A stretch of DNA of 64,000 nt from Paramacrobiotus metropolitanus (taxonomy: Eukaryota; Tardigrada; Eutardigrada; Parachela; Macrobiotidae): the NCBI RefSeq assembly GCF_019649055.1, contig NW_026570301.1:434001-498000 (forward strand), in the 5' to 3' direction. Shown here piece by piece: positions 1 to 53,682 of the stretch; position 1 is the first letter of the stretch, and every line of letters begins with the position of its first letter. Below the pieces are notes generated by a model that did not search any database, was not told the origin of the DNA, and was given only the letters and a program-made list of their open reading frames with translations. The position numbers were made by a program, and so were the translations under genes.

Positions 1-10
1 AATCCGCAGG

Positions 11-25570: not shown

Positions 25571-25574
25571 CCTA

Positions 25575-25953
25575 TATCACCGTGGACCAGGAATGAGTCC
25601 AGGACGGAAGTCCAGACTGACAGGACTCCGTGTAGTGTAGAACGTGACGTGTTAGAGGAAGAAATGCACAACGCACGATATCCAGTCTACGTTATACACT
25701 TTATTAGCGTTCTCTATCGTGAAAACCAACACACTGACGTTCAATGCTCGGTGAGCTAACGTCTACCAAATATCTCATATGTAAACTGCACAGCGCATAG
25801 TGAACACAGTGAACAGCAGCCGTCAGCCAATCAGAAAAGAGACACGCCACAGACGGTAATTCCACGGGGAATCCCCAGTGCGTAGTGCAACGAAGCACTC
25901 CCCCAACTCCAGTAGCGTCACTAAGGTGGACGCAAGGGAGCCATCGCCTCACA
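25575..25953 (-). repeat. 3' LTR of the giant retroelement (379 bp)
   Basis: Nearly identical to 48,248-48,626; I found two substitutions. In element orientation it starts TGTGAGG and ends GGTGATA, so the 3' end is TA rather than the usual CA. An AATAAA signal is at 25,705-25,700 (minus). A palindrome GGGGAATCCCC is at 25,866-25,876, and an inverted CCAAT box near 25,827. No strong polypurine tract is visible immediately upstream. Confidence 0.93.
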
Positions 25954-26814
25954 TGCCTCTGGGTGGGAGGCTGAGCTCCGTCGAAGCTAATTCCATTCCG
26001 TCTCGCTCCGATCGGTGGTCTGTGCGCGCGCTCGTAAACAAAAACAACATCAAATTCTCTCTATTCCTTCTTATCACATAATTCCAAATGCACAATGTGA
26101 ATTAAAAAGATCTGTATAAAAATACTATTCCATATAAACAGATCAACAGTTATAACAGATCAACAGAAGCAGTTAAATGAAACATGTAGACTAGGATCCT
26201 CCGTTGACTCGCGTAGGTCACTGGTCCTGTCCACCGTTTTCCACATCTCTTTGGCCCATTCCGCTCCATCTTGAGCAACTTCACTCCGCTTGAGCATCTC
26301 TGCGCATCTTCGTGCGACTTTTCATCACATCAGCTTTTAGGAATAAGGTGCGTATCGAATGTACGTCTTAGGAATACTGCTTCACTTTTGGAATAGATGC
26401 GTATCAATTGTACGACTTCACAATGAGATCCGGTTAAGTCATGGAGGGACGTCATATAGACAAGCGAAGTTCGCTTCCTCCCTAGTAAGATCATCTTTCT
26501 GATCATGGATGTGCGACATCATCTGGTAAGGTTAATTCAGCATAGGTCATGGAGGAACTTAGCCATTTTTCATCGGCTTTCAAGCTCATCTCAGCTTGCC
26601 TCCCTGGTAAAGTTCATCTCGTCGCACAATCCATCTCTTCCGCCTTATTTAGAGAGCCGGCCAAGTGTACCGTAGCTACTCTTAACTAAGATGAGTCGAT
26701 ATATAGGGATGCCGACATAAGCCGTAACAACTCCTATCAGATCGGTTTTTACTGATCCATCATCTCGTTCGACCCATCTCCATCATCTCTGTCTCGCGGT
26801 GGACGTTTCCGAGT
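25954..26814 (-). other. Retroelement 3' untranslated region
   Basis: No ORF in the element's sense. The plus strand is rich in CATCTC and TCATC words. A degenerate repeat carrying GCGTATCGAATGTACG-like sequence recurs about 50 bp apart near 26,349 and 26,399. It should contain the polypurine tract next to 25,954, but the local sequence (AGAGGCA on the minus strand) is weak. Confidence 0.6.
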
Positions 26815-29733
26815 TTAGCCCGGCTGATTTCTGTCGGAAGTCCGATCAACTGGTGCAGCTGATCCGGTAGGTACGTCCTCGTCCGCTTGAACTCGTAAAA
26901 CGATGTTTCGTGGACCGCGACCTTTCCCTTGTCGTGAACGTTTGATCGCGTCCAAACGATGTCGTGCATCATTCTCTTCACGTTGCAAGTTCCGATTTTG
27001 AGGATCTTCAGCCAATCGTTGTCTGGCGTCCTCATACTGATTCCGGATATTCTGATTTCGAGCAGCTCGTCTGCCCGGTGTATTCGGAACTTTGGAAGTT
27101 GTCGGCTGTTTCGGTCCCTTCCATACCAGGTGATCTTCGATGTAGTCATGGACCCGATCTTTCGGCTCGATATACGGCGTGTCCATGGTGTCTCGAATGC
27201 GATTGAGCCGCTCCTGGTACTGTGCTTCATGTATCTCATGGAGATTACAATCATCGAATCGCTTCTTGCAAATCGTCAAGCCTTCGTTTGCTTTTCTCGC
27301 GATCTCCTGATGTTTCGACGGCATTCCAAGTTTGGCAACCTTTTCCCGGTACACAGGCGGAACTTTCCCCTTCGTAAAGTCCGAAAATAGCTGATTCTGT
27401 GTGGGAAAATGGCCCAATCTCGCAGCAAAGACCTTCTGACCGAAAACTCGCGATTTGTAGTCGGTAGGGTCAACCGTCAGTCCAATGGCTGCTCGTGCCG
27501 CAAGTACTTTGAATGCCGGATTCACGTTGCGTAGCACAAATTGTGCTACATATAGACTTCGCTCCTTATTTTCTTGGTAGCGGAACTGTGTGAGTCCCGT
27601 ATTGTCGATTGTATCCAATGGGACTTCCCATAAGCTCAAGTCGAGGAGACTCGGTAAGCCACATTGTCGGATTGGTGTATAACACACCATCGCAGATTCG
27701 GTGGTGATCTCCAGGCGACCGAGGTTGCTCTCTCTGAGATCCGTTTCGTAATTAGAATCCCGTAGAAACTCGCGTAGATTGTGGAGCTGCGCATGTATCA
27801 TCACTGACTGCTCCGATTCAATTTCCAATCCGAAGTAGCGACAGATTTCCGCTCTTTGGGTTTCGATATCATCCATGTCGTACATTTTGCTGATCAACCT
27901 GCGTCGTGAATTGTCAAAGCGCGAGTGATCTCTCCGGTGACCATCTTCACGTCGTCGTTCTGGTCGTTCCTGTTGACAATCCGGTTGATATCGATTCTGC
28001 GGTTCTTGAGGGCAATTGTGCGATTCGTGAGGGCCTTCCTGCTCACGTCGCGCCGATGTCGATGGTTCAAGATCGCGGTCCAATACCACATTTCTTCTGT
28101 GGACAACGTTGTCAGTTGATGATGTTTCCATCGGTTCGTCTTCGTCCATCGTCACAATCAATGGTTCTACCATATGGACCACTGACTTCACTTTCGGCTG
28201 TTTTGGTAGAGTATCGTCGCGTTCTCCGCTCAAAGTTCGTTTGTGATTTATCGGGAAACTTGCGAAGTAATTCATATCTTCCTGCCATCCCTTATCGTAC
28301 GGGCTGCGACTTCTGACAGGTCCCGCTAAGGTTCCTTCTCGTCGTTCCGGTGTGAACCCTCTGACTTTTGGATGACAGAAACCAACTCCCATCGGTATCT
28401 GCTGATGTGGTTCATCTCGACGCGTTTCTTCTTGACGAGGTTCATCTCGTCGTCGGTCAGCTGGTATATGGCGACGATGTGCGCTGGTCTCAATTACTTG
28501 ATCTCCATGGCGCACCCATGATCTGCCGCCACGGTAATCGTAATCGCGCGAGCGTGATCTATCATCTCTTTCGTTATGATAGTCACGGGTGCGTTCACGG
28601 GAACGTTCTCTTGACCGTTCATTCCGAGAGTCATAATTTCGCTCATGTGAGTACTCTCGTGATCGTTGATGTTCCCGTCTCACTGGTGATCGAGGTCGTT
28701 GGAAACCGTCATCGCGCCGAAAACTTTGAAACGCCTTCATAACATCTCGTTCCATTTCATGTGTCTTTCGAACCTCCTCGGTCATCTTTTCGATGAGCAT
28801 CTTGGTATCGGGTTTAAGTGCTTCGCCTCTTTCCAACCTCATCTTTTCTCGTAAAAGGAGTTCGAATGTGCTTGCGCGGATCTTTGACGGTTCCTTAATT
28901 AATTCATCGATCTGGAGGAGAATGGCCTTCACTCTAACCTCCGCTTCGGCTGCATTCAGTTGAGCCACAGGAATAGGAGCTTTGCCCTGCACCGACCTTT
29001 CTCGGTAATCCTGGGCTGCCCGTTGTTCGGCACGTTTCCTATTGGCTATCGTTTCATCTGCCAGATCTTTCTGTCGTTTCTCCTCCATCATCCTTGCTTG
29101 ATCCGCCTCGAACTTTTTGCGGAAAGCATCACATAAGTCATCTTGTGGAGGTTCGTACGTAGCGTCCCAGCCGATCTCACCGTTCTTGATCGCCTGACGA
29201 TATCGATCTTCAATCAGCATCTTTTCTCTTGGTGGGACCGTCTTCCATGCCTCTGCTGATGTTATGGCTCGGAAAACATCTTTATTCCCACGAATAGCTT
29301 CAGTATATGCCACCAGAGTTCGATTCGGTTCTTTAAAGATGCAGAACCAGCAAGGGTAATCTCCTTTTTCGACCTTGTTGTTTCTGATACAGTCCGGACA
29401 TTTAGAATTATAGCCCGTAAACGGATCAATCCACGGTTTTGGCTGGTTCACGGCGGGTGCGGTCGCAAGTTGAGATCGCGGAGGTGCTGGTTGACTTCGC
29501 ACATTTGTAGGTGCGACTTGATTCTTCGCAGCTGTCGGTTGACTGCCTTGAGGCGCAGGTGCTGCCTGACTTGTGGACGGTACCACCTGACTTCGCGTAG
29601 ATGTCGGTGCTGCTTGGTTTTTTCCGTTTGTAGATCGGGTTTGGTTACTCGCGGCTGCTGCTGGTGCTGCTTGACTTTTCACCGCCGGTGCCGCCGCTTG
29701 AGTGTTTGGTTTAGTCGGACCTTTTTCCGCCAT
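26815..29733 (-). CDS. Retroelement accessory ORF X1 (972 aa, zinc-cysteine + SR-rich, unknown)
   Basis: Intact single ORF, the last in the element. Residues 1-100 are low-complexity Ala/Pro/Gln/Ser. Residues 112-131 have a CX2CX12CX2C arrangement (CPDC...CWFC), a likely zinc site. Residues 200-340 are charged helix. Residues about 345-400 are Arg/Ser/Asp/Glu-rich like an SR domain. Residues about 630-880 look globular, and the tail is basic. I see no signal peptide or membrane segment, so it is not an obvious envelope. Immediately upstream of the ATG, CTTAAC and TTGCAG (minus, about 29,760-29,747) look like a branch site and 3' splice site, which would allow expression from a spliced mRNA as envelope genes do in related elements (inference). 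RNA binding or nuclear localisation is plausible from composition only. No family recognised. Confidence 0.8.
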   Translation of the reverse strand: MAEKGPTKPNTQAAAPAVKSQAAPAAAASNQTRSTNGKNQAAPTSTRSQVVPSTSQAAPAPQGSQPTAAKNQVAPTNVRSQPAPPRSQLATAPAVNQPKPWIDPFTGYNSKCPDCIRNNKVEKGDYPCWFCIFKEPNRTLVAYTEAIRGNKDVFRAITSAEAWKTVPPREKMLIEDRYRQAIKNGEIGWDATYEPPQDDLCDAFRKKFEADQARMMEEKRQKDLADETIANRKRAEQRAAQDYRERSVQGKAPIPVAQLNAAEAEVRVKAILLQIDELIKEPSKIRASTFELLLREKMRLERGEALKPDTKMLIEKMTEEVRKTHEMERDVMKAFQSFRRDDGFQRPRSPVRREHQRSREYSHERNYDSRNERSRERSRERTRDYHNERDDRSRSRDYDYRGGRSWVRHGDQVIETSAHRRHIPADRRRDEPRQEETRRDEPHQQIPMGVGFCHPKVRGFTPERREGTLAGPVRSRSPYDKGWQEDMNYFASFPINHKRTLSGERDDTLPKQPKVKSVVHMVEPLIVTMDEDEPMETSSTDNVVHRRNVVLDRDLEPSTSARREQEGPHESHNCPQEPQNRYQPDCQQERPERRREDGHRRDHSRFDNSRRRLISKMYDMDDIETQRAEICRYFGLEIESEQSVMIHAQLHNLREFLRDSNYETDLRESNLGRLEITTESAMVCYTPIRQCGLPSLLDLSLWEVPLDTIDNTGLTQFRYQENKERSLYVAQFVLRNVNPAFKVLAARAAIGLTVDPTDYKSRVFGQKVFAARLGHFPTQNQLFSDFTKGKVPPVYREKVAKLGMPSKHQEIARKANEGLTICKKRFDDCNLHEIHEAQYQERLNRIRDTMDTPYIEPKDRVHDYIEDHLVWKGPKQPTTSKVPNTPGRRAARNQNIRNQYEDARQRLAEDPQNRNLQREENDARHRLDAIKRSRQGKGRGPRNIVLRVQADEDVPTGSAAPVDRTSDRNQPG

Positions 29734-30113
29734 CTTCGGTTTTAATCTGCAATGTTAAGGCATGTCAAAATATCATTTCGTAACCATCTCCCGATCATTC
29801 TTATCGTCTTTTACGCCTATTTTAGGCTATCCCCGTACTGAGCTGAGACCTTCCTAGCTCATAATGACATTTTTAACACTGTGACATGGTGACCTTTCCA
29901 TGTCGTCAGTTCTAAGCTCATTCGCCTTTTTGACTGATGTGGTTATCTCATCTTCTCATCTCGTGTAGCACATTTGCTAAGTCGTTTCAACCATCTGTTT
30001 CAACGTTTTTCATCTCGGTTATTTCAACTTTTCTCTTTCGTTAAACTGATATGATGCTGTTTCGTCTGTGATATGCGGTGGACCTTCCTGACCGCATATC
30101 ACGCATCTCGCGT
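29734..30113 (-). promoter_or_regulatory. Intercistronic spacer with candidate 3' splice site
   Basis: Lies between the X2 stop and the X1 ATG. On the minus strand CCTTAACATTGCAG ends 14 nt before the X1 ATG, matching branch-point plus acceptor consensus. The rest is noncoding and CATCTC-rich, like the other untranslated parts of the element. Confidence 0.5.
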
Positions 30114-32816
30114 TCACTCTTTTGCCGATGTGTCAGCCGGCTCTGTTGTCTCAGTCGCTGCTGACACCGTATCTCCGGTTGCAACTGATTTCATTTGGGC
30201 ATCGCCAGCTGCGGGCTCGGCAGATGCCGGCTGTTGCGATTCCAAGGTAACTTCCTGGGATGCCGGAATGTTCGCTGAGTTCACGATCTCCTTCTCTGGA
30301 GTATCTTCGGGGAGCTCCTCGGGTTTCGAAAAAATTCGCTTGTTTTTAATCTCAAGGAGATTATCATCGAGAAGACTTTCAACTGCTTGTCTGATTACAT
30401 CCCGATCTCTTTCGATGTTGTAAATTCCCAGCTCGTAGTTAACGGCAAAGAAGTTTGATAGGTCATCCCATGTGACTCCCATCGATCCGCCAAGTCTCGG
30501 CATTGCCGCATCGGTAATGGCGATTTTCCAATATTTCAGTTCCATCTTCAGTCGAGGGTGAAGCGTCGGTTTTGGGAGGTAATATGACCATCTGTTAGAA
30601 TCCGAGTAACAAAAGCCCAACTTTCCTTCTTTGTAGGCCCTCTTGGTCATTCTGTCAAAGCTCACACCAGATAATTTCAGGACTCGGTTGGCACAGATTG
30701 TCGCTCTGAGATCCTTTTGAGTCATCGTCTGAAATGGCTGTCCCGCCAAGATGCTCTTCAGTTCGCACCAAGCGTGGTTCTGATTATCCAGTGGTATTCC
30801 GAGCATGTGGTCGCGATCTTCTGACGTCGACTCTTTTTCATCAATTACGAGCTTTGGAATTGAGCTTGATGAGGACTTCGTCGATTTGGGTTCGTTTCTC
30901 TGGGTGGGAGCTGAGTCCGTCTCATCATCTTTCGATGCTTCTTCGGCTGCTACCCCCTCTTCTTGGAAAGTTAAATCGGTTTTCGATTTGCCGCCACTAG
31001 TTTTTGCTTGCTTCGATGTTGGCAACAGCGGTGCCTGTTGTCGACGACGGCGCATTTCTTCCAATTCCGCTTCGGTTTGTACCGTCAGCTTATCCATGGG
31101 AGTTACGGCCTTCGTTTTCTCACCATGTGACTGTTCACTCGTCGTAGCTACCTCTCCAGGTGTTGGAGGTGCGTCGTGTTCCTCATCCGATCCATAGGCA
31201 AGTTCCAATATACCCTTCGGCGTCAACGATTCCTTCAACTTATCTGCCTTAATCTTTTCCCTGGCAGCCCGTTTCTGATCTCCCTTCTGTAAGAGCACAT
31301 TCAGCATGGGAGTTTCCGGATCACTTCGTTGAGGAATTGGAAGTTTTTCCATGACTTCGCTGGACGAGAAGTTGCAATAATCATGTATATCCTCCGGTAT
31401 AAACCCCAACATGGTATATCTGATCGGAGATCCTTCGTAAGCGTTGGTGGTGAGTAGTTTACCCTCTTGAAGCATCTGCGCTAGCATTGTCTCGTTACCC
31501 GCTTCGATCTCAGCGATTCTACCCATTCCGCCTTGCCATACTCCATTCATATATTGGCTAATACGGTGTCGGGTAGACCCTACCGGACTTCGTAGGCCTG
31601 CGATGGCCGATTCGATCTGTCGTCTCTTATCAGCGGACTTTTCAAATAACTTTTTGTCGATTCCACCGGTTCGAATCAGCTTTGACTTACAGCGCCAATC
31701 GAGATGTTTTTTAATCAGTCTACCAGAATTCAAGGCAAAATCGATGATCGTGTCCAACTTCGATGGAGTCAAACGTCGCTTTCGTTTATTCAACCATTCT
31801 TTAACACGTATTCGGAACCTTACTGTCACCGAGGTATCACCTCGCGTGCGAAATGTAGCCATTGCGAAATTTGTAGCCTCAATCAGATCATTCTCTGTTA
31901 AGGTGTCGTCATCATCCCCTAATTCCTCGAAGTCGGGAAAGGGTTCCTCATCTTCTGGTTCCGAATATTCCAAATCGCTATTCCCCTGTCTTCTGGTGTA
32001 ATTTGCCAATCCGACTTCATCAACTCGTCGGACTGCCGCGGGTTTAGACTTCTTCTTAGTACTTTTCTTCTTGGCGCTTTTCTTCTGTTTCTCCAAGGCT
32101 GCTTGTTTCTGTTTTTCCAATGTCGCTTCCAGACTGTTCGGGGCCGCCACCTTCGGCTCCGTTGTCATACTCCTCGTAGCGCGAACTGGGATGCTGGGTT
32201 TCGACTTCGAAGCAACTGTCGATGTACTCGGACGACTTGCCTCTGATGCTGTCGACTCGCGGGATGTATCACGTTTCCCTTTTTCCTTCTGTACTTTCTC
32301 TCTACGTTCTTTTTGGGTCGACGCGGCCATAATCTGTCCCATATTGACCACTCTCTTTATCGCGATAGATTTCGGTTTTTCTTCCGGCGAGGTTGCTGAT
32401 TGTATAACACCCTTTTTCGGTGTGGTCGTCGACGATTTCAAGCTCTCATCAATTTCGAGGACTTCATCATCCTCTTCTGATTCCTCGCTCACGATATCTT
32501 CATCATCAGATGGGAATCGGTCCTTCCTTTTTCCCGCTTTCTGTTTCTGATCTTTCCGAGATTTCCCTCTCGACTTTTCCGTACCCGTCTTTCCGGGTTT
32601 ATCAGTCCCTTTGTCTGATTTTCTCCGACTTCTTTGATTTTGTGCCAGTTTTAGATGAGCTTGGTTTCGACTCCTCTTTAGACGATTTCGATTTGGATTC
32701 GTCTTTGGGCGATCCTGGCGCTGGATCATCGTCTTCTGAGTCTTCCTGAACTGTGTCCTCCTCATCGTCTTCGTCTCCGTCGGGTTCGGACTCCTCAGGT
32801 GGATGACATCGATCAC
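30114..32816 (-). CDS. Retroelement accessory ORF X2 (up to 900 aa, Lys/Ser/acidic, unknown)
   Basis: The first 70 or so codons overlap the acidic tail of X3 in another frame and are probably not real; the true product likely enters this frame near 32,620. It holds a basic Lys/Ser-rich stretch, acidic blocks (SDDEDIVSEESEEDDE), Lys-rich repeats (KQKKSAKKKSTKKKSK), and a compact region around FNLIEATNFAMATF-type helices (about residues 300-430). A C-terminal helical domain (about 690-830) could be a winged-helix-like fold. There is no membrane segment. Charge pattern and KR clusters suggest a nuclear or nucleic-acid-binding protein (inference). No family recognised. It is intact over 2.4 kb while RT is broken. 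Confidence 0.7.
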   Translation of the reverse strand: MIDVIHLRSPNPTETKTMRRTQFRKTQKTMIQRQDRPKTNPNRNRLKRSRNQAHLKLAQNQRSRRKSDKGTDKPGKTGTEKSRGKSRKDQKQKAGKRKDRFPSDDEDIVSEESEEDDEVLEIDESLKSSTTTPKKGVIQSATSPEEKPKSIAIKRVVNMGQIMAASTQKERREKVQKEKGKRDTSRESTASEASRPSTSTVASKSKPSIPVRATRSMTTEPKVAAPNSLEATLEKQKQAALEKQKKSAKKKSTKKKSKPAAVRRVDEVGLANYTRRQGNSDLEYSEPEDEEPFPDFEELGDDDDTLTENDLIEATNFAMATFRTRGDTSVTVRFRIRVKEWLNKRKRRLTPSKLDTIIDFALNSGRLIKKHLDWRCKSKLIRTGGIDKKLFEKSADKRRQIESAIAGLRSPVGSTRHRISQYMNGVWQGGMGRIAEIEAGNETMLAQMLQEGKLLTTNAYEGSPIRYTMLGFIPEDIHDYCNFSSSEVMEKLPIPQRSDPETPMLNVLLQKGDQKRAAREKIKADKLKESLTPKGILELAYGSDEEHDAPPTPGEVATTSEQSHGEKTKAVTPMDKLTVQTEAELEEMRRRRQQAPLLPTSKQAKTSGGKSKTDLTFQEEGVAAEEASKDDETDSAPTQRNEPKSTKSSSSSIPKLVIDEKESTSEDRDHMLGIPLDNQNHAWCELKSILAGQPFQTMTQKDLRATICANRVLKLSGVSFDRMTKRAYKEGKLGFCYSDSNRWSYYLPKPTLHPRLKMELKYWKIAITDAAMPRLGGSMGVTWDDLSNFFAVNYELGIYNIERDRDVIRQAVESLLDDNLLEIKNKRIFSKPEELPEDTPEKEIVNSANIPASQEVTLESQQPASAEPAAGDAQMKSVATGDTVSAATETTEPADTSAKE

Positions 32817-33588
32817 AGTTCACGTCGTTACATGCCTTGTGATCTGCTCCTTGGATGATCGCGATCGCTCGTTGCATCGATCGTCTCGGGTTATTTTCAT
32901 CAACTGGTTCGTCTTCCATCTGAGGGGCATTTTCGCCTGGTGGAGCGTTTTCGGCTTCCATCTGTTCTTCATATTCACCTTCACCGGCAAGACCTTCCTC
33001 TTCTGCCTGTTTGGACTTGACATAAATTTCGTGTATTTCGGCCGCTGCCGCGAGATGCTTCTTCGGAGTTTCCATCTCGTAGACCAACTCGTAATGCGGT
33101 GTGTAGACTCTCGTACGAAGTTGGCCATCGTCAGTATATGTAACTGTTACCCTAACATAGGCTCCGTCGTCGGCGGCTCTATGACTCATGATGTTCAGAA
33201 TTCCGTTTCTGTTGGCTTGAACATCTTTTTTCTTGTCCTCCGGCAACATATTGTGCAGATTCGCCAGTGCTTTTTCATTCTCCATAATAGCATATTCCCT
33301 CTCTTCTTTCGATATAAACCAAGGTGCAAATGGGACGGGATCTCCTGATATAGGATCGACAATTTCGGCGATCATCACAATGGGCAATCCGACCGTACAG
33401 TGGAGTCCCAATTTGAAGACTCGACAGGTCATTTCCTGGTACAAATAAGTCGTGTCATATGCCTCTTTCGGCATCCTTTGACCATCTGATTCGATCCCCT
33501 CTCTCACCCGATGTCGCTCAACTGCCAACATCTCTCCATCACATATACGCATCTCTCCATCACATATACGTTGCGTACATATACGCAA
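32602..33588 (-). CDS. Retroelement accessory ORF X3 (328 aa, acidic C-terminus, unknown)
   Basis: Overlaps X4 by 29 nt and X2 by 215 nt in different frames. The N-terminus contains RICDGEM twice, encoded by a 21-bp tandem repeat near 33,530-33,571. The middle (residues about 40-200) looks globular. A short CX4CX2C cluster (CNDVNCDRC) precedes a long Asp/Glu tract and a Lys/Ser tail. The arrangement X4-X3-X2 looks like one longer product read across frame changes, by programmed shifting or by base errors; I cannot tell which. No family recognised. Confidence 0.65.
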   Translation of the reverse strand: MRICTQRICDGEMRICDGEMLAVERHRVREGIESDGQRMPKEAYDTTYLYQEMTCRVFKLGLHCTVGLPIVMIAEIVDPISGDPVPFAPWFISKEEREYAIMENEKALANLHNMLPEDKKKDVQANRNGILNIMSHRAADDGAYVRVTVTYTDDGQLRTRVYTPHYELVYEMETPKKHLAAAAEIHEIYVKSKQAEEEGLAGEGEYEEQMEAENAPPGENAPQMEDEPVDENNPRRSMQRAIAIIQGADHKACNDVNCDRCHPPEESEPDGDEDDEEDTVQEDSEDDDPAPGSPKDESKSKSSKEESKPSSSKTGTKSKKSEKIRQRD

Positions 33589-34408
33589 AGTGGTCGTCCA
33601 ACGTTCCCACTCTTATACAGATCCATGCTTTCTCTTTCACGGCTATTGGCGTGATCACCTGTCTTAACGTCTGAATGAGGATTCGTGGATCTGCGCGATC
33701 TTCCTCGCGTCTGATCTTAAGTAGCGCCCCCTGCACCTCATCTCTCGACTGTTTGGTGATCTGGTTTCTAATTTCCGTCGGTGTAGTAGGATGATATGAG
33801 GGAGTATCCTCTTTCGTGTCCTTATCGATAAGCTGGGCAGTAACCTTGTACGGAAGTCCTTCTGATCTCGAATATGTCGCCGTATATGCCCGAACCTGTG
33901 GTATGATCATCGGAGTTCTTGCCGGTGGTGGTGGCAGTTGGGTCAAACTTTTCCCTGCCAGTACAGCGATTTGCTGTTCCTTCGGTGGTTCCTTACTCAC
34001 CGAGGGTTTCACCGGAACTACCGACGTCTCTTGCGCCTTCGGCGGTGCCATACTCGCCGTGGACTTCACTGGTACGACCGGTATTTCCTGCACCTTCGGC
34101 GGTTCCTTACTCGCCGTGGGCTTCACTGGTACCGGCATCTCTTTTTCTTTCGGCGGTTCCTTACTCGCCGTCGACTTTTCAGTCTGATGTCCCTTCTCCG
34201 TTGATTTAGGACTTGTCGTCTGCGATCTGTTCCGTTTGACGCTGCCACGAGATGAATCTGCCGTTGAACTTTCTCGTGATCTCGCTCTTTGCTCGATAGC
34301 TTCGTCAATTCGTTTCTTCTGTTCTTTTAAGTCCGCATCTGTCATCTCTTCAACTGACTTCGCAGTTGGTGTACCAGGTTTAGGCGCGCCGCTCGTCGCA
34401 GGTTGCAT
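33560..34408 (-). CDS. Retroelement accessory ORF X4 (282 aa, Pro/Lys repeat protein, unknown)
   Basis: The open frame extends a little upstream of the first ATG. The centre has four imperfect copies of a motif of the type ASKEPPKxQEIPVVPVK (about residues 78-150), encoded by about 60-bp tandem units near 33,960-34,170. A less biased C-terminal region (about 165-275) follows. Disordered linker plus a small domain is the most I can say. No family recognised. Confidence 0.65.
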   Translation of the reverse strand: MQPATSGAPKPGTPTAKSVEEMTDADLKEQKKRIDEAIEQRARSRESSTADSSRGSVKRNRSQTTSPKSTEKGHQTEKSTASKEPPKEKEMPVPVKPTASKEPPKVQEIPVVPVKSTASMAPPKAQETSVVPVKPSVSKEPPKEQQIAVLAGKSLTQLPPPPARTPMIIPQVRAYTATYSRSEGLPYKVTAQLIDKDTKEDTPSYHPTTPTEIRNQITKQSRDEVQGALLKIRREEDRADPRILIQTLRQVITPIAVKEKAWICIRVGTLDDHFAYMYATYM

Positions 34409-40357: not shown

Positions 40358-40889
40358 CTCCTCATCTCCAACTTCTCATATCCGATGGGCCTTTTGGTCC
40401 CAATAAAGACACAGTTTATAGATCTTCGAGCGAGTTCATTGTTAGGAGTCATCTCGTACATGCACCATTTATCGTCTCCTCGTTGAGGGTATTCAGCTCC
40501 ATCTGGAACTGGTGTGAAGGTCACCTTTTCTTGACCAGGTAACCAGCTGAGCCAACTTCTCTTGTTTTCGATATACTTTCAGTTCAAGTATATCGGTATC
40601 TGGCAGTGGAGAATTCCTTCCAACTTTTCCAATACTTTTCAGCATCTCGACGTTTCCTCCTCTCCAGAGGTTGCATCGAACGATTCTCGGAACAGCTCAA
40701 TATAATACGTTTACCAGTGTCCGTTGGGAAGAATGATATTGTGTCCATTTTCCTTATAGACCGGTTGATTCCTCTAATCTCTCCTGAGACTGATGGTCGG
40801 TTGCTTCATTTTATCCTCAATGATACCTCCATTCTCGTATCGTTCATGTTTTCATCTCCGTCCTTTTTGGATCTTCGGACTTCTATCTT
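40358..40889 (-). other. Stretch between protease ORF and linker ORFs
   Basis: No long ORF on the element strand. It may be coding with frame breaks or a true gap between protease and RT; I see no recognised motif. Confidence 0.4.
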
Positions 40890-42554
40890 TTATCGTCCAT
40901 CAACTTTTATTCCCAGTGCCTCTGGTACTGGGATAGACTTTACTAACTCCATACCAGGTACAAGAGCTCGCTTCGCTTCGATAGCTGCTTCCTTTTGTAC
41001 AGCTGCTATCTGTTCCCTCGTCAACGGAGTTCCATCTTTCGTTCCCAGTGCCTCTGGTACTGGGATAACATCTTTATCAGTTGCCTTTTGATCGTTTTTC
41101 GTCGTTCCCGGTACTGGGATAGCCTTTTGATCTGGTTTAGCTGCTTTTACAAGTCCGGTGACCTTTCCGGCTTGAATTTTGACAGCTGATTTCGGCTCAT
41201 CTTCAACTTCCTCCTCCCCATGATTATCGATCAGGACGAACTTTGTCGCCAGAAAATCATGTCCCAATAGAACCTGTACATCATCTGTTTTCGGTCGTAC
41301 GTAGAAGGAGTGTTGACTGGTCCGTTTCCGCAATGTCACTGGTGCTACACAATAATGCGTTACGTTGAAGCCTGATATCCCGCTGATTCCGTTAATTCGC
41401 ACCAATCGATCTGGTGGCAGCGGTAAGACATGAAGTCCGTTCTTTTCGCAAAACGGTCGGCTGATCAGTGATGTTTCCGCACCGGTATCTAACATCGCCA
41501 AGACCTTTATGTCGCCGATTTTCACCTCATGTGTGTACGCTTCGATCCTTTTCGGCAAATTATGCTTCGATCCATTTTGTACTTTGAGCGTACGAACGGT
41601 ACATTTAACTGGGATAAGCGATACAGGTCCCGGATCCATATCAACTGCTGAAGAAGGCACCTGCCCGTTCGCTAAGGTGCTGTTCTTCTTCAGTATCGAG
41701 CTCAGATGATCGATCCTATGTGGGACATCAGTTCGGATATCGTAGAATTGTCTCTTCTTTCCATCTTTTGAGCTTTGTATCATCTCACACCCCTTTTTCT
41801 TTGCAGCTTTATCATCTTTGACGATCTTTTCAACTTCGTTTAGTTGCTCCTTCGCAACTTCTGAGTGATCTTTGATCACCTCAGAGATGGTCTGATGCAA
41901 TGTGACATCATTTGATTTATCGCGCCGATGCTCAGTGATCTCATTTGTGATCTGATCAGCTCGTTTCATCTCATCTTCTTCGCTGTCCTTCAGCTGATCT
42001 GGTGATCTCTCATATGTTACCATCTCATATCCGTTTTGGGTCATCCAATCGATTACCTTCGCAGATACTTCATTGTTCGTTTTCGTTGGATCAATCTGCG
42101 AAGACATCCCATCTGTTCGAACTGGTGACTTGTCATTGGGATCTTTTTGCTGTGCTTCGGTGAAATCTCGTGACCTTTCAGTTGGTTTAATAGCGAATCC
42201 GCCACTTGGCAACTTTTGTAACGGAACTTTTTCTCCATAATTCGGCGGTTTATCAGCTGGACGAGCATTTCGGTTTTGGTCAACGAGTGTCTTCTTATAG
42301 TCCATCTCGTTGAACATTGGGACGAGGTTTCCCCAGATTTGCTTCCGCTGTAGCGTAACTGCATCATCCAATGAGTCATCTGAGATTTGTTGTGCCCGTT
42401 CGCTCTCTTCAAGCTGCACTTTTCGCAGCGTCAGTTCCTTTTCCTGACCTTTTCCAACGATCTTTTTGTCGTTAGTTTTAGCGACTGCACTTGCTCCCTG
42501 ATCTCTCACTGGTGCTTTCCTTATAGGAAGTGGTTTTTCATCTTTGCTGCCCAC
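40890..42554 (-). CDS. Retroelement protease ORF (554 aa)
   Basis: The aspartic protease active site is ML DTG A at residues about 353-359 (DTGAETSLISR), with the flap and ILGxDFL-like LLGHDFLATKF about 80 residues later: a complete retropepsin-type domain at residues about 335-460. It would cut Gag and Pol. The first 330 residues are charged linker. The C-terminus contains IPVPEALG twice and related IPVPG, an imperfect repeat encoded near 40,915 and 41,045. Protease on its own ORF, apart from RT, is possible in Ty3/gypsy relatives, or a frame break separates them. Confidence 0.85.
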   Translation of the reverse strand: MGSKDEKPLPIRKAPVRDQGASAVAKTNDKKIVGKGQEKELTLRKVQLEESERAQQISDDSLDDAVTLQRKQIWGNLVPMFNEMDYKKTLVDQNRNARPADKPPNYGEKVPLQKLPSGGFAIKPTERSRDFTEAQQKDPNDKSPVRTDGMSSQIDPTKTNNEVSAKVIDWMTQNGYEMVTYERSPDQLKDSEEDEMKRADQITNEITEHRRDKSNDVTLHQTISEVIKDHSEVAKEQLNEVEKIVKDDKAAKKKGCEMIQSSKDGKKRQFYDIRTDVPHRIDHLSSILKKNSTLANGQVPSSAVDMDPGPVSLIPVKCTVRTLKVQNGSKHNLPKRIEAYTHEVKIGDIKVLAMLDTGAETSLISRPFCEKNGLHVLPLPPDRLVRINGISGISGFNVTHYCVAPVTLRKRTSQHSFYVRPKTDDVQVLLGHDFLATKFVLIDNHGEEEVEDEPKSAVKIQAGKVTGLVKAAKPDQKAIPVPGTTKNDQKATDKDVIPVPEALGTKDGTPLTREQIAAVQKEAAIEAKRALVPGMELVKSIPVPEALGIKVDGR

Positions 42555-42600
42555 CGTGGCGTTCTGTTCTAACCACTTTTGTTTTAGTACCGTATCATCT

Positions 42601-43077
42601 TCATCTTCCGGACTTCGTTTTCATCTCCTTTTCTGCGTTTTGATTACGTAGAAACTCTCGGAATCTGGAGTGCTGATCATTCGTCTCTTTTTCTTCCAGT
42701 TTCTTCTTCAAGTTCGCCTTTCGAATGATCTCGTTACGTTGAGCGCGCCGTTCTTTTAGCTTTTCGGCACTACATTTTCCTTTATTTATCAACTGATCAT
42801 CAGCAGTACCATTCTGCTGTGGTTTCGCAGTTCCATTCTGCGCAGGTGGTCCTTTCTTCACCTGGGATGGCATCTTTTGAGCCATCTCACTCACAGTACC
42901 ATTCTGTGGTGACTTCGCAGTACCATTCTGCGGAAGTGGCCTTTTGTCCACTTGTGATGGCATCCTATAAACCATCTCCTTCAGCTGATGTGACGGCATC
43001 TTGTTAGCCGTGTCGCCTACAGTCCGATTCTGTGGCTGTGGTACTTTGCCCACTGATGATGGCATCTTATTAGCCAT
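42601..43077 (-). CDS. Retroelement ORF with MPSQ/QNGTA repeats (158 aa)
   Basis: Lies between Gag and protease in another frame. The first 95 residues are imperfect repeats of KMPSQVxKxPxPQNGTA. The remainder is a basic helix (ERRAQRNEIIRKANLKKKLEE). It may be a Gag-Pol linker reached by frameshifting from the end of Gag, or the N-terminal part of the protease ORF. No family recognised. Confidence 0.55.
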   Translation of the reverse strand: MANKMPSSVGKVPQPQNRTVGDTANKMPSHQLKEMVYRMPSQVDKRPLPQNGTAKSPQNGTVSEMAQKMPSQVKKGPPAQNGTAKPQQNGTADDQLINKGKCSAEKLKERRAQRNEIIRKANLKKKLEEKETNDQHSRFREFLRNQNAEKEMKTKSGR

Positions 43078-43154
43078 CTCTTTCGCAGTCCGATTCTGTG
43101 TTCCTCCTTTATCCGGTGGTTTCGGTTGCGGAGGATCAGTAGGCTCACCGGCAC

Positions 43155-46100
43155 CTACTGATCTTGGCCGTTTCCCTGATCCAGCGCCTGCTGTTGCTGG
43201 ACTTGTTCGTTCCTCTGGTCAGCGCCGTTCGCGCCGCCACCGTCGTTATTATCGGCGCGTCCGTTGCCGCCGCCGTTCCGGTTGCCGTATCCGCCGCGTC
43301 CATTGCCGCGACCTCGCCCGCGGAAACCACCTCTTCCGCCGCCGTTATAGCCACCATTTTGGCCACCACCGTTATTTCCATTCCCTTGGCCGCCGCCGCC
43401 GTTCCCCTGCTTAAACGCAGCCCATCTCGCGACCAGGTCGTAGCCGTTCGCTACTGCTTGTCGCCAGCCACCTTGGGCTCGCAGCCATTCCCATTCTCTG
43501 GTGGCGAACAAGTTCGGGTTCCGGTTTGGTGGCATACCAGCGAACATGCAGTTCTGTGCGTCGTGGTTTCCAAATCCACAATTCTGGCACAGCTGCACGC
43601 CCTGGGCGATCCATCCGTCAATTTGGCCAAATTTCCATTCCGTTCGAGAACCCTGTTGTGGCTGATAGTTGCTTTGGTTCTGCTGATAGTTTCCTTGTCT
43701 GTTATTGGGCTGATAGTTGCCCTGCCCCTGGTTTCGATTGAAGTTGCCATTTCTTTGGCCACCGTTCCAGTTTCCATTTCCGTTTCCATTTCCGTAATTG
43801 GACCTTCCTTGTTGTTGGGGCGCCCCTCCCTTCAGGGGACTCGGCATCATATTAGCCGGGGCCATTGGCCTTGCCTGCGCCTGCGCTTGTATCGCGGCGA
43901 CCATGGCGTATGAAATCGGTTTTCCAGTTTGGCTGTCGATGAAAGTCATCTCCTTGCGAGTTGGGGATGGCGATCTCGTCTGGTATTCCACAGGGGACGG
44001 TGTGGGTGCGTATTGTCGCTGTGCCATTTCAGCTTGGCCCGACCGGATGGTTGCGATCTCCGGTTGGTTGCGTTGACCTTCCACCACTTTATATTTGTCT
44101 TCGCCCGCTGTCCACGATCGGAAGAAGTCCTTTATCTCCGTTGGCGTTTTGAATTCTCTTATCTTCAGGGCTTTATATAGATCGGGATCAGTTCTGCATC
44201 CGTCGATCAGAAAGGCGACTGCCTGTAGTTCAGTAATGGCCTTTTTCGCCTTGAACTTCATCATTGCCTGATAGAACTGTTCGGGTGTTTCTTTTCCTGG
44301 TTTGAATTTCCTGTTCATGGCTTCGCGTAAGCCGAGAACTTCTTCATTTCGATCACCAAACTCATCTTTAAACTTGTTCAACCATTCCGTGACGGTGTAA
44401 ACCTCCTCTTCAGCTTCTTCGATGTCTCTTTCGCCATCGAACCAGGTCTTTGCTGGTCCTCTGACAGCACTGGCGATGTCGATCAGCATTTGATCATCAG
44501 TCATGTCGTATGTCCGTTGTGTTTCTCTTACTAATCGGATCCATCCGCTTAACGCATCGCGGTTGCCGTCGAAAGTCGCAAGATCAGTTTTGCGACCCAT
44601 GTTTCTGATGGATCTATTAAATTCCCGTTGTCCTCGATTTTCATTCCGATCTTCTCGTTGGTTGCGTTCGTTACGATATTCCTGGAAGAATCTTCCGTCG
44701 TGTTCGTGCCGTGGAGAGCGTGCATCCTGATTTACGCCGTCCTTGACTGTTGTTTCGTCAGTCTGTTGGAATCGTGAAGGGTCACCGAAGTTCATATGTG
44801 GCCGGTGACTACTTGATGGCTTCCTGTCATCCTTGGTTTCTTCATCTCCTTCTGTTTTCAGTCCCCCTGTGCCACCGCCCGTTCGCAGTGGCATCTCGAA
44901 ATGAAAGCTCCCGCCCGCTTCTTGTGCCTTACTGTAGCTGTGGGGAGGTGTGTCGGCAGCATCTCTTTTTGCACTTTCTGCTTGCAGAATTAGCTCTTCC
45001 CTGTGTTTATTTGTCACTTTTAGGCCCTTGTTCTCATTTTCGAGACGTTTAATTCTGATGTTAAGCTGCTCGTTTTCGGTTTGCAGCTGATCTCGCTCCT
45101 GCTTGAGCATATGGGCGAAATTCTGCCGCTGAATCGTCTCCGCGTTTAACTCCTTTTCGTCCGTCTCTCTCGCTTTAATCTGGTCAATTAGCTGATTCAT
45201 TTGCTGTTCCAGTTGAGCATACGCATCAGCTGCCGATTTCAGTTGAGTTCTCGATAGGGTGACTTCATCTTGGTGAGTCATTACCGTTTGCGTCATATCG
45301 ACCAGCTCCGTGTTGAGCTTTATGTTCTCGTCTGTCAGCTCACGGATCTTTTTCTGATGTTCTTTGCTCTCCACTTCGACTTTTGTCACCTTCGTGTCTA
45401 GTCGTCGTGCTTCTTCTTCCCATCTTTGGCCCCATTCGGCCGCTTTCTGACCAGCTTCTTTGAGCTGCGCGTTCTCCTCAGTGACCTGCCTGATTTCATC
45501 TTTAAGTCGTCCCCCTTCAGTAGCTAGGAGCTCTCTCAGGTCTTGTGCCACTTTGAGAGCATCATCGGCTCGTTTCTGGTGATCTTCCGATTTCCTTTGG
45601 AGAGTTTGAATATTCCCATCTTTCAGCTTCAGGTCCTCTCTGAGGTTAAATATATCCTTATTCACCGCTGTTAATCGTTTGGTTGCTTCCGCTAATTTGG
45701 TTGCGTATTCGTCTCGCTTCGCCTCAGCCTCATCTGCTTTTTTACGCAGTTCATCACATTGATCTTTCAATTCCGCTATGTGGCGAGATCGCTCGGCGGA
45801 TTCCTCCGATAGACTCTCGTTGAGATCGCTTACGGCCATGTAGCCTTCCATCTCCCTATCATCCGCAATTTTCAAGTTGTCTTCCGCGATCTCCTTCTGG
45901 CGTTCGTATCTTACTTTCCATTCCGTTGCCGTGTTCTCTAATACGCCCTGGTGTTGCTCCAACTCATAGATACGAGCTTCAAGAGATCCCAACCGATTTT
46001 GATATTCCTGTTTCTTCTTGATAGTCTGAGCTTCTTTTTCTTCCAACGAAATCTCGAGTTCTTTGACTCGACGTTTCAGGCTTGAAGTGGGGCTGTTGGG

Positions 46101-46829
46101 AAATGGAGATCGTACGTTGACGATCTTCCCCGTCTGATTCCTTTCAATCAGACTTTCGGGGATGTCCTCGAAGGATGTCAATCCTTGAGCTCGATCCGCT
46201 TCCTTCATTGCGGTTTGAAATGACATATTCAATGTCATCTCGTCTTCTGTGAAGTACGATTCTTCGTTCCCGCGATTGGACATCATCTCATCAGATGCCA
46301 TCGGACTCTCGAAGATGTCTTCGGTTGTTGTTTCATCTCCGAGTGTGAGATCATCTAGTCTGAGTTCGTTGAGATCATCTGTTGTGATCGTTGGCTGTTC
46401 GGTGAGTTCGGTTTTGGCCAGGTTCTCCTTCTTATCCTGGTCTGACATATCCTTTTGCGATGTCAGATCCATCTCCGCGGCTTCTTCTGAGTTCATTCCT
46501 TCTTTGGTGACCTCCTGGTTCACCTCACTGTTTCCCGCCGCAGGCGCGGGAGATCGTTTCAGATCATCACTGGAGCTCTCTTGAGCTGACACTGCTTCGA
46601 GTGCCTTTTGATATGTCGCTTCCGACCCACGTGAATCTTTCTTCACGGGGACTTTCGGTGCTCGAGTGTTTCGATCATGTCCAACTGGACGCGAGTACGG
46701 GTACAAGTCTTTCTTGTACGGGTTATGTGCGCCTTGCTGTGACCCGTGAGAGCTACGGCTCCCCTGACTGCTGTTAGATGTCGGTTCGATGATCTCTTTA
46801 TCCATGATGATCGGATAACTGTGACGCAC
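43155..46829 (-). CDS. gag: Gag of the giant retroelement (1224 aa)
   Basis: Intact ORF. The second Met (residue 9, MDKEIIEP) may be the real start. Residues 1-240 are Ser-rich and acidic. Residues about 250-620 form a long heptad-patterned coiled coil. Residues about 745-905 match the retrotransposon Gag fold (ATFDGNRDALSGWI ... GPAKTWFDG ... EQFYQAMMKF). Residues 1081-1094 are a CX2CX4HX4C zinc knuckle (CQNCGFGNHDAQNC). Residues about 1140-1200 are Gly/Asn/Arg-rich RGG repeats. Gag packages element RNA into particles. A coiled coil of some 370 residues in front of the capsid fold is unusual and makes this Gag two to three times the normal size. Confidence 0.9.
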   Translation of the reverse strand: MRHSYPIIMDKEIIEPTSNSSQGSRSSHGSQQGAHNPYKKDLYPYSRPVGHDRNTRAPKVPVKKDSRGSEATYQKALEAVSAQESSSDDLKRSPAPAAGNSEVNQEVTKEGMNSEEAAEMDLTSQKDMSDQDKKENLAKTELTEQPTITTDDLNELRLDDLTLGDETTTEDIFESPMASDEMMSNRGNEESYFTEDEMTLNMSFQTAMKEADRAQGLTSFEDIPESLIERNQTGKIVNVRSPFPNSPTSSLKRRVKELEISLEEKEAQTIKKKQEYQNRLGSLEARIYELEQHQGVLENTATEWKVRYERQKEIAEDNLKIADDREMEGYMAVSDLNESLSEESAERSRHIAELKDQCDELRKKADEAEAKRDEYATKLAEATKRLTAVNKDIFNLREDLKLKDGNIQTLQRKSEDHQKRADDALKVAQDLRELLATEGGRLKDEIRQVTEENAQLKEAGQKAAEWGQRWEEEARRLDTKVTKVEVESKEHQKKIRELTDENIKLNTELVDMTQTVMTHQDEVTLSRTQLKSAADAYAQLEQQMNQLIDQIKARETDEKELNAETIQRQNFAHMLKQERDQLQTENEQLNIRIKRLENENKGLKVTNKHREELILQAESAKRDAADTPPHSYSKAQEAGGSFHFEMPLRTGGGTGGLKTEGDEETKDDRKPSSSHRPHMNFGDPSRFQQTDETTVKDGVNQDARSPRHEHDGRFFQEYRNERNQREDRNENRGQREFNRSIRNMGRKTDLATFDGNRDALSGWIRLVRETQRTYDMTDDQMLIDIASAVRGPAKTWFDGERDIEEAEEEVYTVTEWLNKFKDEFGDRNEEVLGLREAMNRKFKPGKETPEQFYQAMMKFKAKKAITELQAVAFLIDGCRTDPDLYKALKIREFKTPTEIKDFFRSWTAGEDKYKVVEGQRNQPEIATIRSGQAEMAQRQYAPTPSPVEYQTRSPSPTRKEMTFIDSQTGKPISYAMVAAIQAQAQARPMAPANMMPSPLKGGAPQQQGRSNYGNGNGNGNWNGGQRNGNFNRNQGQGNYQPNNRQGNYQQNQSNYQPQQGSRTEWKFGQIDGWIAQGVQLCQNCGFGNHDAQNCMFAGMPPNRNPNLFATREWEWLRAQGGWRQAVANGYDLVARWAAFKQGNGGGGQGNGNNGGGQNGGYNGGGRGGFRGRGRGNGRGGYGNRNGGGNGRADNNDGGGANGADQRNEQVQQQQALDQGNGQDQ

Positions 46830-47450
46830 CTGCTGGTTTTGCTCACATACACGTTATAATGAGATCGTTTTAAGTCCCTGAGATCGCTTTTTAGCTGATC
46901 TACTTCGATCGAGTTCGCTTTTAAAGGGCACTTTTTCGAGAAAAAGATCGAGAGTTTTGCCTCAAAAATGATCTCCTTCAGCTGCTAATATCAATAAAAC
47001 TACTAGAAAGATCGTTTGGAGTTCGTATTCGGTTAAATTAGATGATCTCAACTCAATTGTAAAGGTCACTACCTGATCTGATCTGATCTCAAAGGTCACT
47101 GATGATCTCGAGATGATCGACCTCCAAGATGGTCACTTTTCGGTCACTTCAGTTCGATTGAAAACAACTTCCTTTAACTGATTTTAGATCGTTAACAATG
47201 AGAAAAGATCGTTTTAACTGATGAGAGATCGTTACGAGATCGTTTTAGATCGATCTGATCTGATGTCAAGATCACTGACGATCTCGAGATGATCGATCTC
47301 CGAAATGGTCACTTTTTTGGTCACTTCAATTCAATTAAAACCAACTTCCTTTAGTTAAATTTAGATCGTTTCCGATGAAAAGAGATCGATCCCACTGCTG
47401 GGAGATCGTTAGGAGATCATTTTAGATCGATTTTACCGTTAAAAATTTTG
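46830..47450 (-). promoter_or_regulatory. GATC-saturated leader with 176-bp tandem repeat
   Basis: About 30 GATC tetramers occur between 46,860 and 47,430, against two or three expected by chance. They often lie within AGATCGTTT, GATGATCTC or TGATCTGATC. Two tandem units of 176 bp (about 47,077-47,252 and 47,253-47,428) share CTCGAGATGATCGA, ATGGTCACTTTT and ACTTCCTTTA. It is untranslated leader between PBS and gag; packaging, transcription or translation control are all possible. Confidence 0.75.
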
Positions 47451-48236
47451 ACCAATCGGAGTTCGTTAAACTGACCAATCACATGTACTCGTTAAAATTT
47501 TCTGACCGGCCTGACGTCACAGATCGACGGCCAGACTTGCGTGCCGTGTGCAAAAACTACGCCTACGTCTAGCTCAGCTCAGTACCGACCAATAAGAATT
47601 GCGTATTTTACGCCTCAACCAATCCGATAATTAATAACGGGTTTTTACCTGTCTACCGTTCCGATCCCACGAAAAGATGATCCAGATTACGAAGATGATC
47701 CAGGTGATCTTCTCCACAGTCCGATCCCGCGCACCCGTATTCCGCACGGTTGTGGCGCCTTCCTGTCCGACCTATTCAGCCTTCTGCTGGGCTTGTCAAG
47801 CCTATCAGCAGGTCGCTCTACAACCAATTTAATGGAGCGCGTTAACTGATCTCTTGGCACCTCATTCGGTGCTGCCAACTCGTGGCTTCTCGGCTCTTGT
47901 GCCCGACAGCCTTGACCCCAACAAGAGGTGCTCGCTGCCTAGCAGAGGAAACAGCACAAGTTATCCGACAGGAGAGATCTTGCACCGCAGCCTTCTGCCG
48001 TCTGATTGGAAATGCACGACGAGTTCTCCTACAGGAGACTCTCTAGTCAGTGCAGCCGCTGATGCTGGCAATCCGATCGATGAGCGCGCCCTGCTTCAGA
48101 TAAGGAAAACCAGTGCCTTACTGGTGAAATAAGATCATTGAGATCAAAATGATCCAGATCAATATGGCCGTTCGCCAAACAAGTAAGATGTGGCCGTTCG
48201 CCAAACAGATAGAACTCAGAAACCGTCTGTTCACGG
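47451..48236 (-). promoter_or_regulatory. Retroelement leader, PBS-proximal part
   Basis: Between PBS and the GATC-rich part. Several CCAAT words lie near 47,452, 47,484, 47,588 and 47,620 on the plus strand. A candidate 5' splice site (GACAG|GTAAAAA, minus, exon end 47,651) could pair with the acceptor before X1. GATCCAG and GCCGTTCGCCAAACA words are repeated near 48,150-48,210. Everything from 47,757 rightward is copied again at 51,908. Confidence 0.5.
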
Positions 48237-48247
48237 CTCTGCTACCA
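48237..48247 (-). promoter_or_regulatory. Primer-binding site, initiator tRNA-Met
   Basis: On the minus strand TGGTAGCAGAG starts directly after the 5' LTR. It is complementary to the CTCTGCTA-CCA 3' end of animal initiator tRNA-Met. A second copy lies at 52,388-52,398. Confidence 0.88.
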
Positions 48248-48626
48248 TATCACCGTGGACCAGGAATGAGTCCAGGACGGAAGCCCAGACTGACAGGACT
48301 CCGTGTAGTGTAGAACGTGACGTGTTAGAGGAAGAAATGCACAACGCACGATATCCAGTCTACGTTATACACTTTATTAGCATTCTCTATCGTGAAAACC
48401 AACACACTGACGTTCAATGCTCGGTGAGCTAACGTCTACCAAATATCTCATATGTAAACTGCACAGCGCATAGTGAACACAGTGAACAGCAGCCGTCAGC
48501 CAATCAGAAAAGAGACACGCCACAGACGGTAATTCCACGGGGAATCCCCAGTGCGTAGTGCAACGAAGCACTCCCCCAACTCCAGTAGCGTCACTAAGGT
48601 GGACGCAAGGGAGCCATCGCCTCACA
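48248..48626 (-). repeat. 5' LTR of the giant retroelement (379 bp)
   Basis: Same length as the 3' LTR, bounded by the PBS on one side and CCTA on the other. The palindrome GGGGAATCCCC is at 48,539-48,549, 78-88 nt from the LTR 5' end, in the expected promoter-proximal U3. AATAAA is in the second half, consistent with the polyadenylation signal. Confidence 0.93.
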
Positions 48627-48630
48627 CCTA

Positions 48631-49379: not shown

Positions 49380-49382
49380 TTA

Positions 49383-53497: not shown

Positions 53498-53682
53498 CGA
53501 GGGAAAGCTTTCAACTTGTCGCGCGATTCACTGCCCACACATAGTATCATTAGATTCGTCGGAATTCAGGGAATTTGTTGTCGCGCAAAAGGTTTCTCCC
53601 AAGCAATAAACTGAAGTTGCAAAACTTCGAAGAACCCAACACGGATGTGATGGCTGAAAGTAGGTTAGACGTCAGCCTGCGT
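53498..53682. repeat. Left terminal inverted repeat of Tc5 copy 2
   Basis: Inverse of 56,413-56,597 with scattered mismatches. Shared words include GCGCGATTCACTGCCC, TTGTTGTCGCGCAAAAGGTT and GCAAAACTTCGAAGAACCCA. Confidence 0.88.

Follow-up and report, generated by a model that had tools for sequence, protein, structure and literature searches.

Typical gypsy elements are 5–8 kb long. In the genome of the tardigrade Paramacrobiotus metropolitanus, a 64,000-nucleotide stretch of contig NW_026570301.1 (positions 434,001–498,000; hereafter the window) contains a Ty3/gypsy element of ~23 kb, with its coding strand on the minus strand, at window positions 25575–48626. Is this size genuine, and what are the long genes that follow its integrase? 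The LTRs, target-site duplication (TSD) and primer binding site (PBS) had been predicted to fix the ends of the element exactly, and they do:

48248..48626, minus strand: 5' LTR, 379 bp, matched elsewhere in the genome too
25575..25953, minus strand: 3' LTR, 379 bp, with 2 mismatches to the 5' LTR
25571..25574, unstranded: TSD CCTA on the 3' side of the element, flanking the 3' LTR
48627..48630, unstranded: TSD CCTA on the 5' side of the element, flanking the 5' LTR
48236..48247, minus strand: PBS TGGTAGCAGAGC, immediately inside the 5' LTR

We take TGGTAGCAGAGC to be a PBS of the initiator-Met type; TGGTAGCA occupies the same position in all six relatives that we fetched from the genome. The internal part measures 22.3 kb, and apart from the two LTRs no direct repeat of 100 nt or longer occurs between positions 25000 and 49500, in agreement with the original prediction that no second LTR or pol lies inside. 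With the structural hallmarks of Metaviridae (LTRs, a short target duplication and a tRNA primer site), the window element is a member of a group of giant Ty3/gypsy (Metaviridae-type) LTR retrotransposons of P. metropolitanus. Scanning the window for Rfam families and for tRNAs yielded no matches.

A search of the P. metropolitanus genome (169.8 Mb, 533 contigs) with the LTR (40 of 82 candidates scored, 42 matches) revealed at least 14 LTR pairs of the window family among the matches listed. Eight of these 14 have a spacing of 22.7–23.6 kb (C81, which is the window copy, C27, C1 673k, C59, C133, C115, C6 2997k and C1 96k), two are longer (28 and 41 kb) and four shorter (14–16 kb). We compared six of the seven other 23-kb copies (A–F) at full length, leaving out C1 96k, where ORF3 and ORF4 matches are also present. 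As had been proposed as a check, we asked whether their LTRs enclose the ORFs seen in the window copy, and found gag, pol and the four accessory ORFs of that copy (X1–X4, described below) collinear in all six, several of which have interrupted frames. Their LTR pairs are 98.6–100% identical, and a perfect 4-bp TSD flanks five of them (six of seven counting the window copy; the exception is C115). Since LTRs are near-identical within copies and diverge by up to ~20% between copies, these are independent young insertions of several sublineages. What moves is thus a 23-kb unit comprising gag, pol and, after the integrase, two accessory genes, ORF3 and ORF4. Nesting or chimeric assembly, already discounted in the original prediction, is practically impossible as the origin of this size given the LTR spacing, the TSDs and the gene order shared across copies, although the element adjoins a tandem duplication on its 5' side and the locus, or its assembly, is therefore not simple there.

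This duplication (47757–51910 and 51908–56025, 98–99.9% identical) is either a true recent event or an assembly error. It carries the end of the element leader, an LTR and a Tc5-like transposase relic, with a third LTR, identical to the 5' LTR, lying outside the element at 52399–52777. Each duplicate holds one Tc5-type transposase remnant with DNA-binding and C-terminal domains, at 50342–51996 and 54456–56129, respectively.

The first part of the coding region holds the ordinary retrotransposon genes:

43155..46853, minus strand: gag ORF, 1232 aa; N-terminal half with weak matches to coiled-coil families, tail rich in G, N and R
43548..43589, minus strand: CCHC-type zinc knuckle CQNCGFGNHDAQNC in gag, read by eye
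40890..43218, minus strand: pol start with N-terminal extension and aspartic protease, in two pieces (42601–43218 and 40890–42620)
38446..40375, minus strand: part of pol with the reverse transcriptase (RT), frame broken in the window copy
36285..38346, minus strand: pol region encoding RNase H and integrase, from Pfam matches

Pfam recognised protease, RNase H and integrase in the window copy, the RT of which is readable only in pieces because of its broken frame; in the relative copy L013, RVT_1, RNase H and integrase lie within one frame. The order protease–RT–RNase H–integrase is thus found by combining the window copy (protease, RNase H, integrase) with L013 (RT, RNase H, integrase). The motif YIDD occurs in copies A and C–F, with a stop just before it in A, and copy B has YIDY. 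Gag measures 1234 aa in copy D, and pol is open over 2758 aa around the integrase in copy B and over up to 3141 aa at C370. The ORF maps of the relatives contain gag, pol, a single long ORF3 and then ORF4.

Four long ORFs had been predicted after the integrase, and they measure 979, 901, 336 and 307 aa from stop to stop in the window copy. All four are present, X4 being ORF4, but X1, X2 and X3 are pieces of one gene, ORF3, which also includes the stretch between the integrase and X1 (34.5–35.5 kb):

30114..35499, minus strand: ORF3 (X1–X3 plus the upstream part), several frames in the window copy, a single frame in others
26815..29754, minus strand: ORF4 (X4), ~970 aa, with its ATG at 29733

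That X1–X3 are separate genes is ruled out by the other copies, in which ORF3 is open over ~1630–1850 aa. In copies C113, C1 677k and C167 of the window family (family I), the frame that includes X3 runs without a stop for 1652, 1793 and 1848 aa, and the ORF3 frame extends over 1780–1782 aa in family II (C97, C44), 1640–1644 aa in family III (C327, C7, C9) and 1716–1756 aa in family IV, being shorter or broken at most of the remaining places in those match lists. ORF4 is open over roughly 910–1010 aa in many copies.

Both genes have been maintained by selection. We estimated dN/dS (NG86) between the window copy and each of the six relatives from tblastn-aligned codons, dropping stop and gap codons. 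The values were 0.079–0.12 for X4, 0.095–0.181 for X3, 0.115–0.195 for X2 and 0.195–0.252 for X1; those of the standard genes were 0.053–0.114 (RNase H–integrase), 0.035–0.079 (RT piece), 0.056–0.207 (pol piece P39, but 0.553 with copy F), 0.189–0.351 (protease part), 0.162–0.328 (pol start G2) and 0.088–0.319 (gag). A wrong-frame control (gag and its overlap) gave pooled pN/pS values of 1.39 and 1.42, which rules out X1–X4 as drifting non-coding sequence. ORF3 and ORF4 are therefore under purifying selection and kept as element genes, with the exception of the ORF3 piece Y1, to which this claim does not extend since its dN/dS is 0.55–0.87. For one and the same pair, dS varies several-fold along the element (0.08–0.48 with copy A, 0.06–0.45 with copy B), suggesting that the copies may be mosaics generated by template switching.

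Genome searches with ORF4 (47 of 872 candidates scored, at least 50 matches), ORF3 (50 of 1080, at least 55 matches) and the gene model P0006 (30 of 1639, at least 58 matches), the last of which revealed the fourth family, delineated four diverged families (I–IV), each with ORF3 followed by ORF4. The ORF4 matches listed fall into identity classes of ~78–100, 59–66 and 49–50%, and ORF3 precedes ORF4 wherever both match lists could be paired (e.g., C7, C103, C97, C44, C74, C73). A permuted gene order in P0006 proved only apparent, as this gene model seems to fuse neighbouring copies. The LTR matches are spaced by 24.25 kb in the family III copy C103 (159 nt, 91% identical, the outer LTR edge not being fixed) and by 24.5 kb in the family IV copy C73 (323 nt, 97.5%, near a contig end). 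Among the matches listed for the integrase (99 of 1551 candidates scored), the score falls after the first 16 places; the remainder are ~78–91% identical and, we infer, mostly belong to other families. Between families, the ORF3/ORF4 module is ~33–66% identical versus 78–91% for the integrase, the latter at the best-scoring places of a list biased towards high similarity. That the element may represent a giant lineage equipped with accessory genes of its own, as originally predicted, is upheld by the presence of the same ORFs in the relatives, by purifying selection and by the ORF3–ORF4 order of the four families. A literature search, with most subscription journals outside its reach, returned no title concerning tardigrade LTR elements of giant size.

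More distant relatives exist in the same genome. In a quick RT–RNase H tree with 117 rows, for which a length filter retained 116 of 120 search hits and removed P0017 and three others, the four P. metropolitanus rows formed one clade (SH-aLRT 100) on a long stem (1.08); the tree was built from search hits and not from reference elements of named clades. Among the 120 matches shown by the pol search, those from other organisms are at most 45% identical, the named ones being largely from arthropods, with some algae and one fish. The P0016 pol is 58% identical in RT–RNase H and, downstream of a P0016-type pol at C1 2.80 Mb, we found long broken ORFs including a part similar to the ORF3 segment WH2 described below (27–35% identity, E 1e-7 to 1e-10). 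Another relative, at C37:452723-472717 (19,995 bp, identical 433-bp LTRs, TSD AGAC), has an ORF4-like piece between pol and the 3' LTR (31–35% identity, E 1e-16), while ORF3 gave no match in that interval at E 1e-4, which suggests that ORF4 may be the older accessory gene, as far as one copy can indicate. Long ORFs are absent from ~3.4 kb ahead of the 3' LTR of this element, and the LTR itself is preceded by CCCAGAGGCA, as in the window copy.

Copies of this LTR family lacking X1–X4 had been named as evidence against such a lineage, and they do exist, as a minority. Of the 16 best integrase places, 14 have an ORF4 match nearby and 13 an ORF3 match (match lists compared by hand). In copy C265, ORF3 is missing along with the end of pol and the start of ORF4. 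The two places without either gene, C35:562755-578107 (TSD GCAC, identical LTRs) and C6:365922-380511 (TSD CTAA, LTRs 99.7% identical), have lost all of ORF4 and retain ORF3 as a piece of only 211 or 164 nt. They have in common the joint that deletes the end of ORF3 together with ORF4, and differ at the other one, C35 retaining ~0.3 kb more just before ORF3 than C6. The shared joint and the retained piece indicate that their state is derived. Since both inserted independently without the two genes, ORF3 and ORF4 are not needed in cis and can act in trans; the rest of the element still moves after their loss, presumably with help in trans. As these derivatives show, insertion can do without the two genes, at least where other copies provide them; functions outside the replication cycle would fit this too.

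In a search of 5.8 billion proteins with 8000 candidates scored per query, all six relatives of ORF4 and the single relative of ORF3 were P. metropolitanus gene models; no relative from outside this species, and neither a nematode nor a virus protein, appeared among those candidates. Neither ORF3 nor ORF4 matched any Pfam domain or family, in keeping with the original description of long ORFs without recognisable family. Profile searches against solved structures gave nothing significant (best E 0.33–0.9, with grancalcin, ADAR1, Ly49C, vaginolysin and NELF-E); the NELF-E match (E 0.33) falls in an RS/RE-rich stretch of ORF4. Pieces of both genes pass as named tardigrade genes in NCBI annotation, which matters for its users: the gene models P0001–P0007 present what are accessory ORFs of the retrotransposon group as host genes, and some bear the names of look-alikes ('RNA-binding protein 25-like', 'serine/threonine-protein kinase fray2-like', 'trichohyalin-like' and 'dentin matrix acidic phosphoprotein 1-like', among others).

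Errantiviruses and other gypsy elements with env carry ORFs 3' of pol, expressed from a spliced subgenomic RNA. The tardigrade element also has ORFs 3' of pol, for which spliced subgenomic RNA would be expected, but they differ from env in having neither a membrane segment nor an env-like Pfam match. The highest 19-residue hydropathy was 1.19 in complete ORF3, 1.13 in ORF4 and 1.60 in the window fragment X2, with no transmembrane-like segment in ORF3 or ORF4 by this measure. A simple env is thus ruled out, as originally predicted.

Comparisons among the families and with reference profiles did provide some clues, located approximately in the window copy except for the ORF4 motif:

33575..33892, minus strand: ORF3 repeat domain R1, from between-family matches
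33076..33543, minus strand: ORF3 repeat domain R2, from between-family matches
31410..31643, minus strand: ORF3 segment WH2, weakly linker-histone-like, from profile comparison
30582..30815, minus strand: ORF3 segment WH3, weak short linker-histone-like match, from profile comparison
30330..30566, minus strand: ORF3 segment WH4, weakly linker-histone-like, from profile comparison
29341..29400, minus strand: ORF4 C-x2-C ... C-x2-C motif, present in members of families I–IV

By our reading, ORF3 appears to bear a tandem repeat domain, in two copies in families I–III and three in family IV. R-domain matches between families occur in shifted register (E 6e-9 to 9e-4), and each complete ORF3 compared with itself gave no internal repeat at E < 1. 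Four segments (WH1–WH4) look winged-helix-like to us, a resemblance that is suggestive only. When compared with a linker-histone profile, the WH2, WH3 and WH4 profiles outscored all 200 column shuffles, whereas 44 of 200 shuffles reached the score of WH1; hhalign gave probabilities of linker-histone likeness of 17–32%. The linker-histone references comprised three sequences (chicken H5, fly H1 and human H1), with homeodomain, HMG box, ubiquitin, calmodulin, H3 and H4 as single-sequence controls. WH4 scored higher with each of the three linker histones than with the six controls. For WH2 and WH3, chicken H5 was best, followed by fly H1, both above the six controls, and human H1 fell below one or more of them; the best single-sequence match of WH1 was calmodulin.

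Signals resembling splice sites lie in the leader and before both accessory genes:

48115..48124, minus strand: splice-donor-like CCAGTAAGGC in the leader, downstream of the PBS, identified by sequence
35598..35614, minus strand: splice-acceptor-like pyrimidine tract and AG before the ORF3 start, identified by eye
29747..29753, minus strand: splice-acceptor-like ATTGCAG, 13 nt upstream of the start codon of ORF4

The donor-like CCAGTAAGGC is present in all five family-I leaders considered (window, A, B, C and F, with D and E excluded), for a chance expectation of about one such hexamer per leader. A tract and AG before ORF3 are recognisable by eye in families I–IV (10 sequences, copy C missing). 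In the alignment of families I–IV, the ORF4 site lies 13–14 nt before the ATG and reads ATTGCAG in nine of 10 sequences and ATTACAG in one (family II); a second island, GTCTCAGCTCAG, upstream of ORF4 is common to all 10. These signals suggest that ORF3 and ORF4 may be expressed from spliced RNAs.

We therefore favour, though tentatively, an element that makes gag-pol from full-length RNA and uses spliced RNAs for nuclear, nucleic-acid-binding accessory proteins acting in trans. The leader donor would be joined to the acceptors before ORF3 and ORF4, generating subgenomic RNAs as for retroviral env/rev and Cer1 CERV. Both proteins would enter the nucleus and bind nucleic acid of the element, and could work on derivatives that lack their genes. 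ORF4, basic, RS-rich and with a C4 zinc motif, might be a regulator of RNA splicing or export that releases the very long unspliced RNA; ORF3, with its repeat domains and linker-histone-like segments, might pack DNA/chromatin or RNA.

Alternatively, ORF3 and ORF4 could be additional components of the virion or particle (a larger core, a tegument, soluble entry or transmission factors) that package or transmit the 23-kb genome and are no nuclear regulators, which we consider somewhat unlikely. The module sits after the integrase, in the position of env, it diverges more between families than the integrase does, and gag is likewise unusually long. Retroviruses without env still insert, as do the copies without the module. 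However, the absence of transmembrane-like segments and of virus proteins in the searches made speaks against particle proteins, and the strong charge and RS-rich, zinc-motif composition suit nucleic-acid binding better. It is unlikely that the two proteins serve instead to counter host silencing (piRNA or chromatin) or immunity in an accessory-gene arms race. Divergence between families, the number of R domains, which by our reading differs between family IV and the others, the dispensability of the module in trans and the linker-histone-like segments would all fit such a role, but the low dN/dS within family I denotes constraint. A bolder reading, which we regard as unlikely, makes ORF3 a linker-histone-like winged-helix array that coats or chromatinises the very long cDNA or disturbs host chromatin silencing, paired with ORF4 as RNA-export/splicing factor. 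If true, the two genes would be a nuclear toolkit enabling giant Ty3/gypsy genomes in tardigrades. Finally, retroelements do capture host genes (PMC6431247), but passive host-derived cargo is very improbable here given the lack of host-like relatives among the candidates scored, the same genes in four diverged families and purifying selection.

Gigantism itself is not new, and the tardigrade group resembles known systems in size and position, not in accessory content. According to PMC6431247, which cites Grohme et al. 2018 on Burro, giant gypsy elements are already known from Burro and Ogre, and animal ones can surpass 30 kb. Burro/GYPSM1 of planarians is similarly a giant Ty3/gypsy with >20 kb between LTRs, many copies and accessory coding capacity without assigned use, but it exceeds 30 kb and has an ORF1 of 4.9–5.1 kaa combining gag with MATH, BIR, ankyrin, BCL2 and Env-like domains (PMC6431247). 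In contrast, the tardigrade element has short LTRs (379 bp), gag and pol in separate frames and its accessory proteins after the integrase, and Pfam found none of those Burro domains in it. Plant Ogre elements likewise reach up to 25 kb in total and carry extra ORFs without assigned function, but most of their size comes from LTRs of 1.9–6.5 kb around an internal part of 11–13 kb (PMC6431247), versus 22.3 kb here. Cer1 of Caenorhabditis elegans is, according to PMC10309623, a Ty3/gypsy element with a large, lineage-restricted 3' ORF devoid of env features, CERV, a precedent for an orphan gene at the 3' end of a gypsy element that functions in exporting genomic RNA from the nucleus. CERV is cysteine-rich, with a possible C4 finger, and is made from a spliced mRNA; the C4 motif of ORF4 and the splice-like sites might be counterparts. 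It is a single protein of 517 aa, compared with ~2600–2800 aa and an RS-rich region in the two tardigrade genes. Relative to PMC6431247 (2019), tardigrades join planarians as animals having gypsy elements with >20 kb of internal sequence, and do so with an accessory set devoid of Pfam matches to the Burro domains. The tables of the tardigrade repeat paper PMC11071193 cover Hypsibius and Ramazzottius, with Paramacrobiotus absent from them. Since copies with both genes, part of one, or neither coexist in one genome, the role of accessory genes in a giant retroelement becomes testable.

Two other features were observed in the window. A BCS1-like AAA ATPase piece lies at 58139–58900 on the minus strand (Pfam AAA and BCS1_N). 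Positions 1–3815 and 17118–20689 (also 9745–10079 and 23001–23334) are collinear pieces with 76–85% identity, ~13–17 kb apart, which represent either an older, diverged duplication or related repeats.
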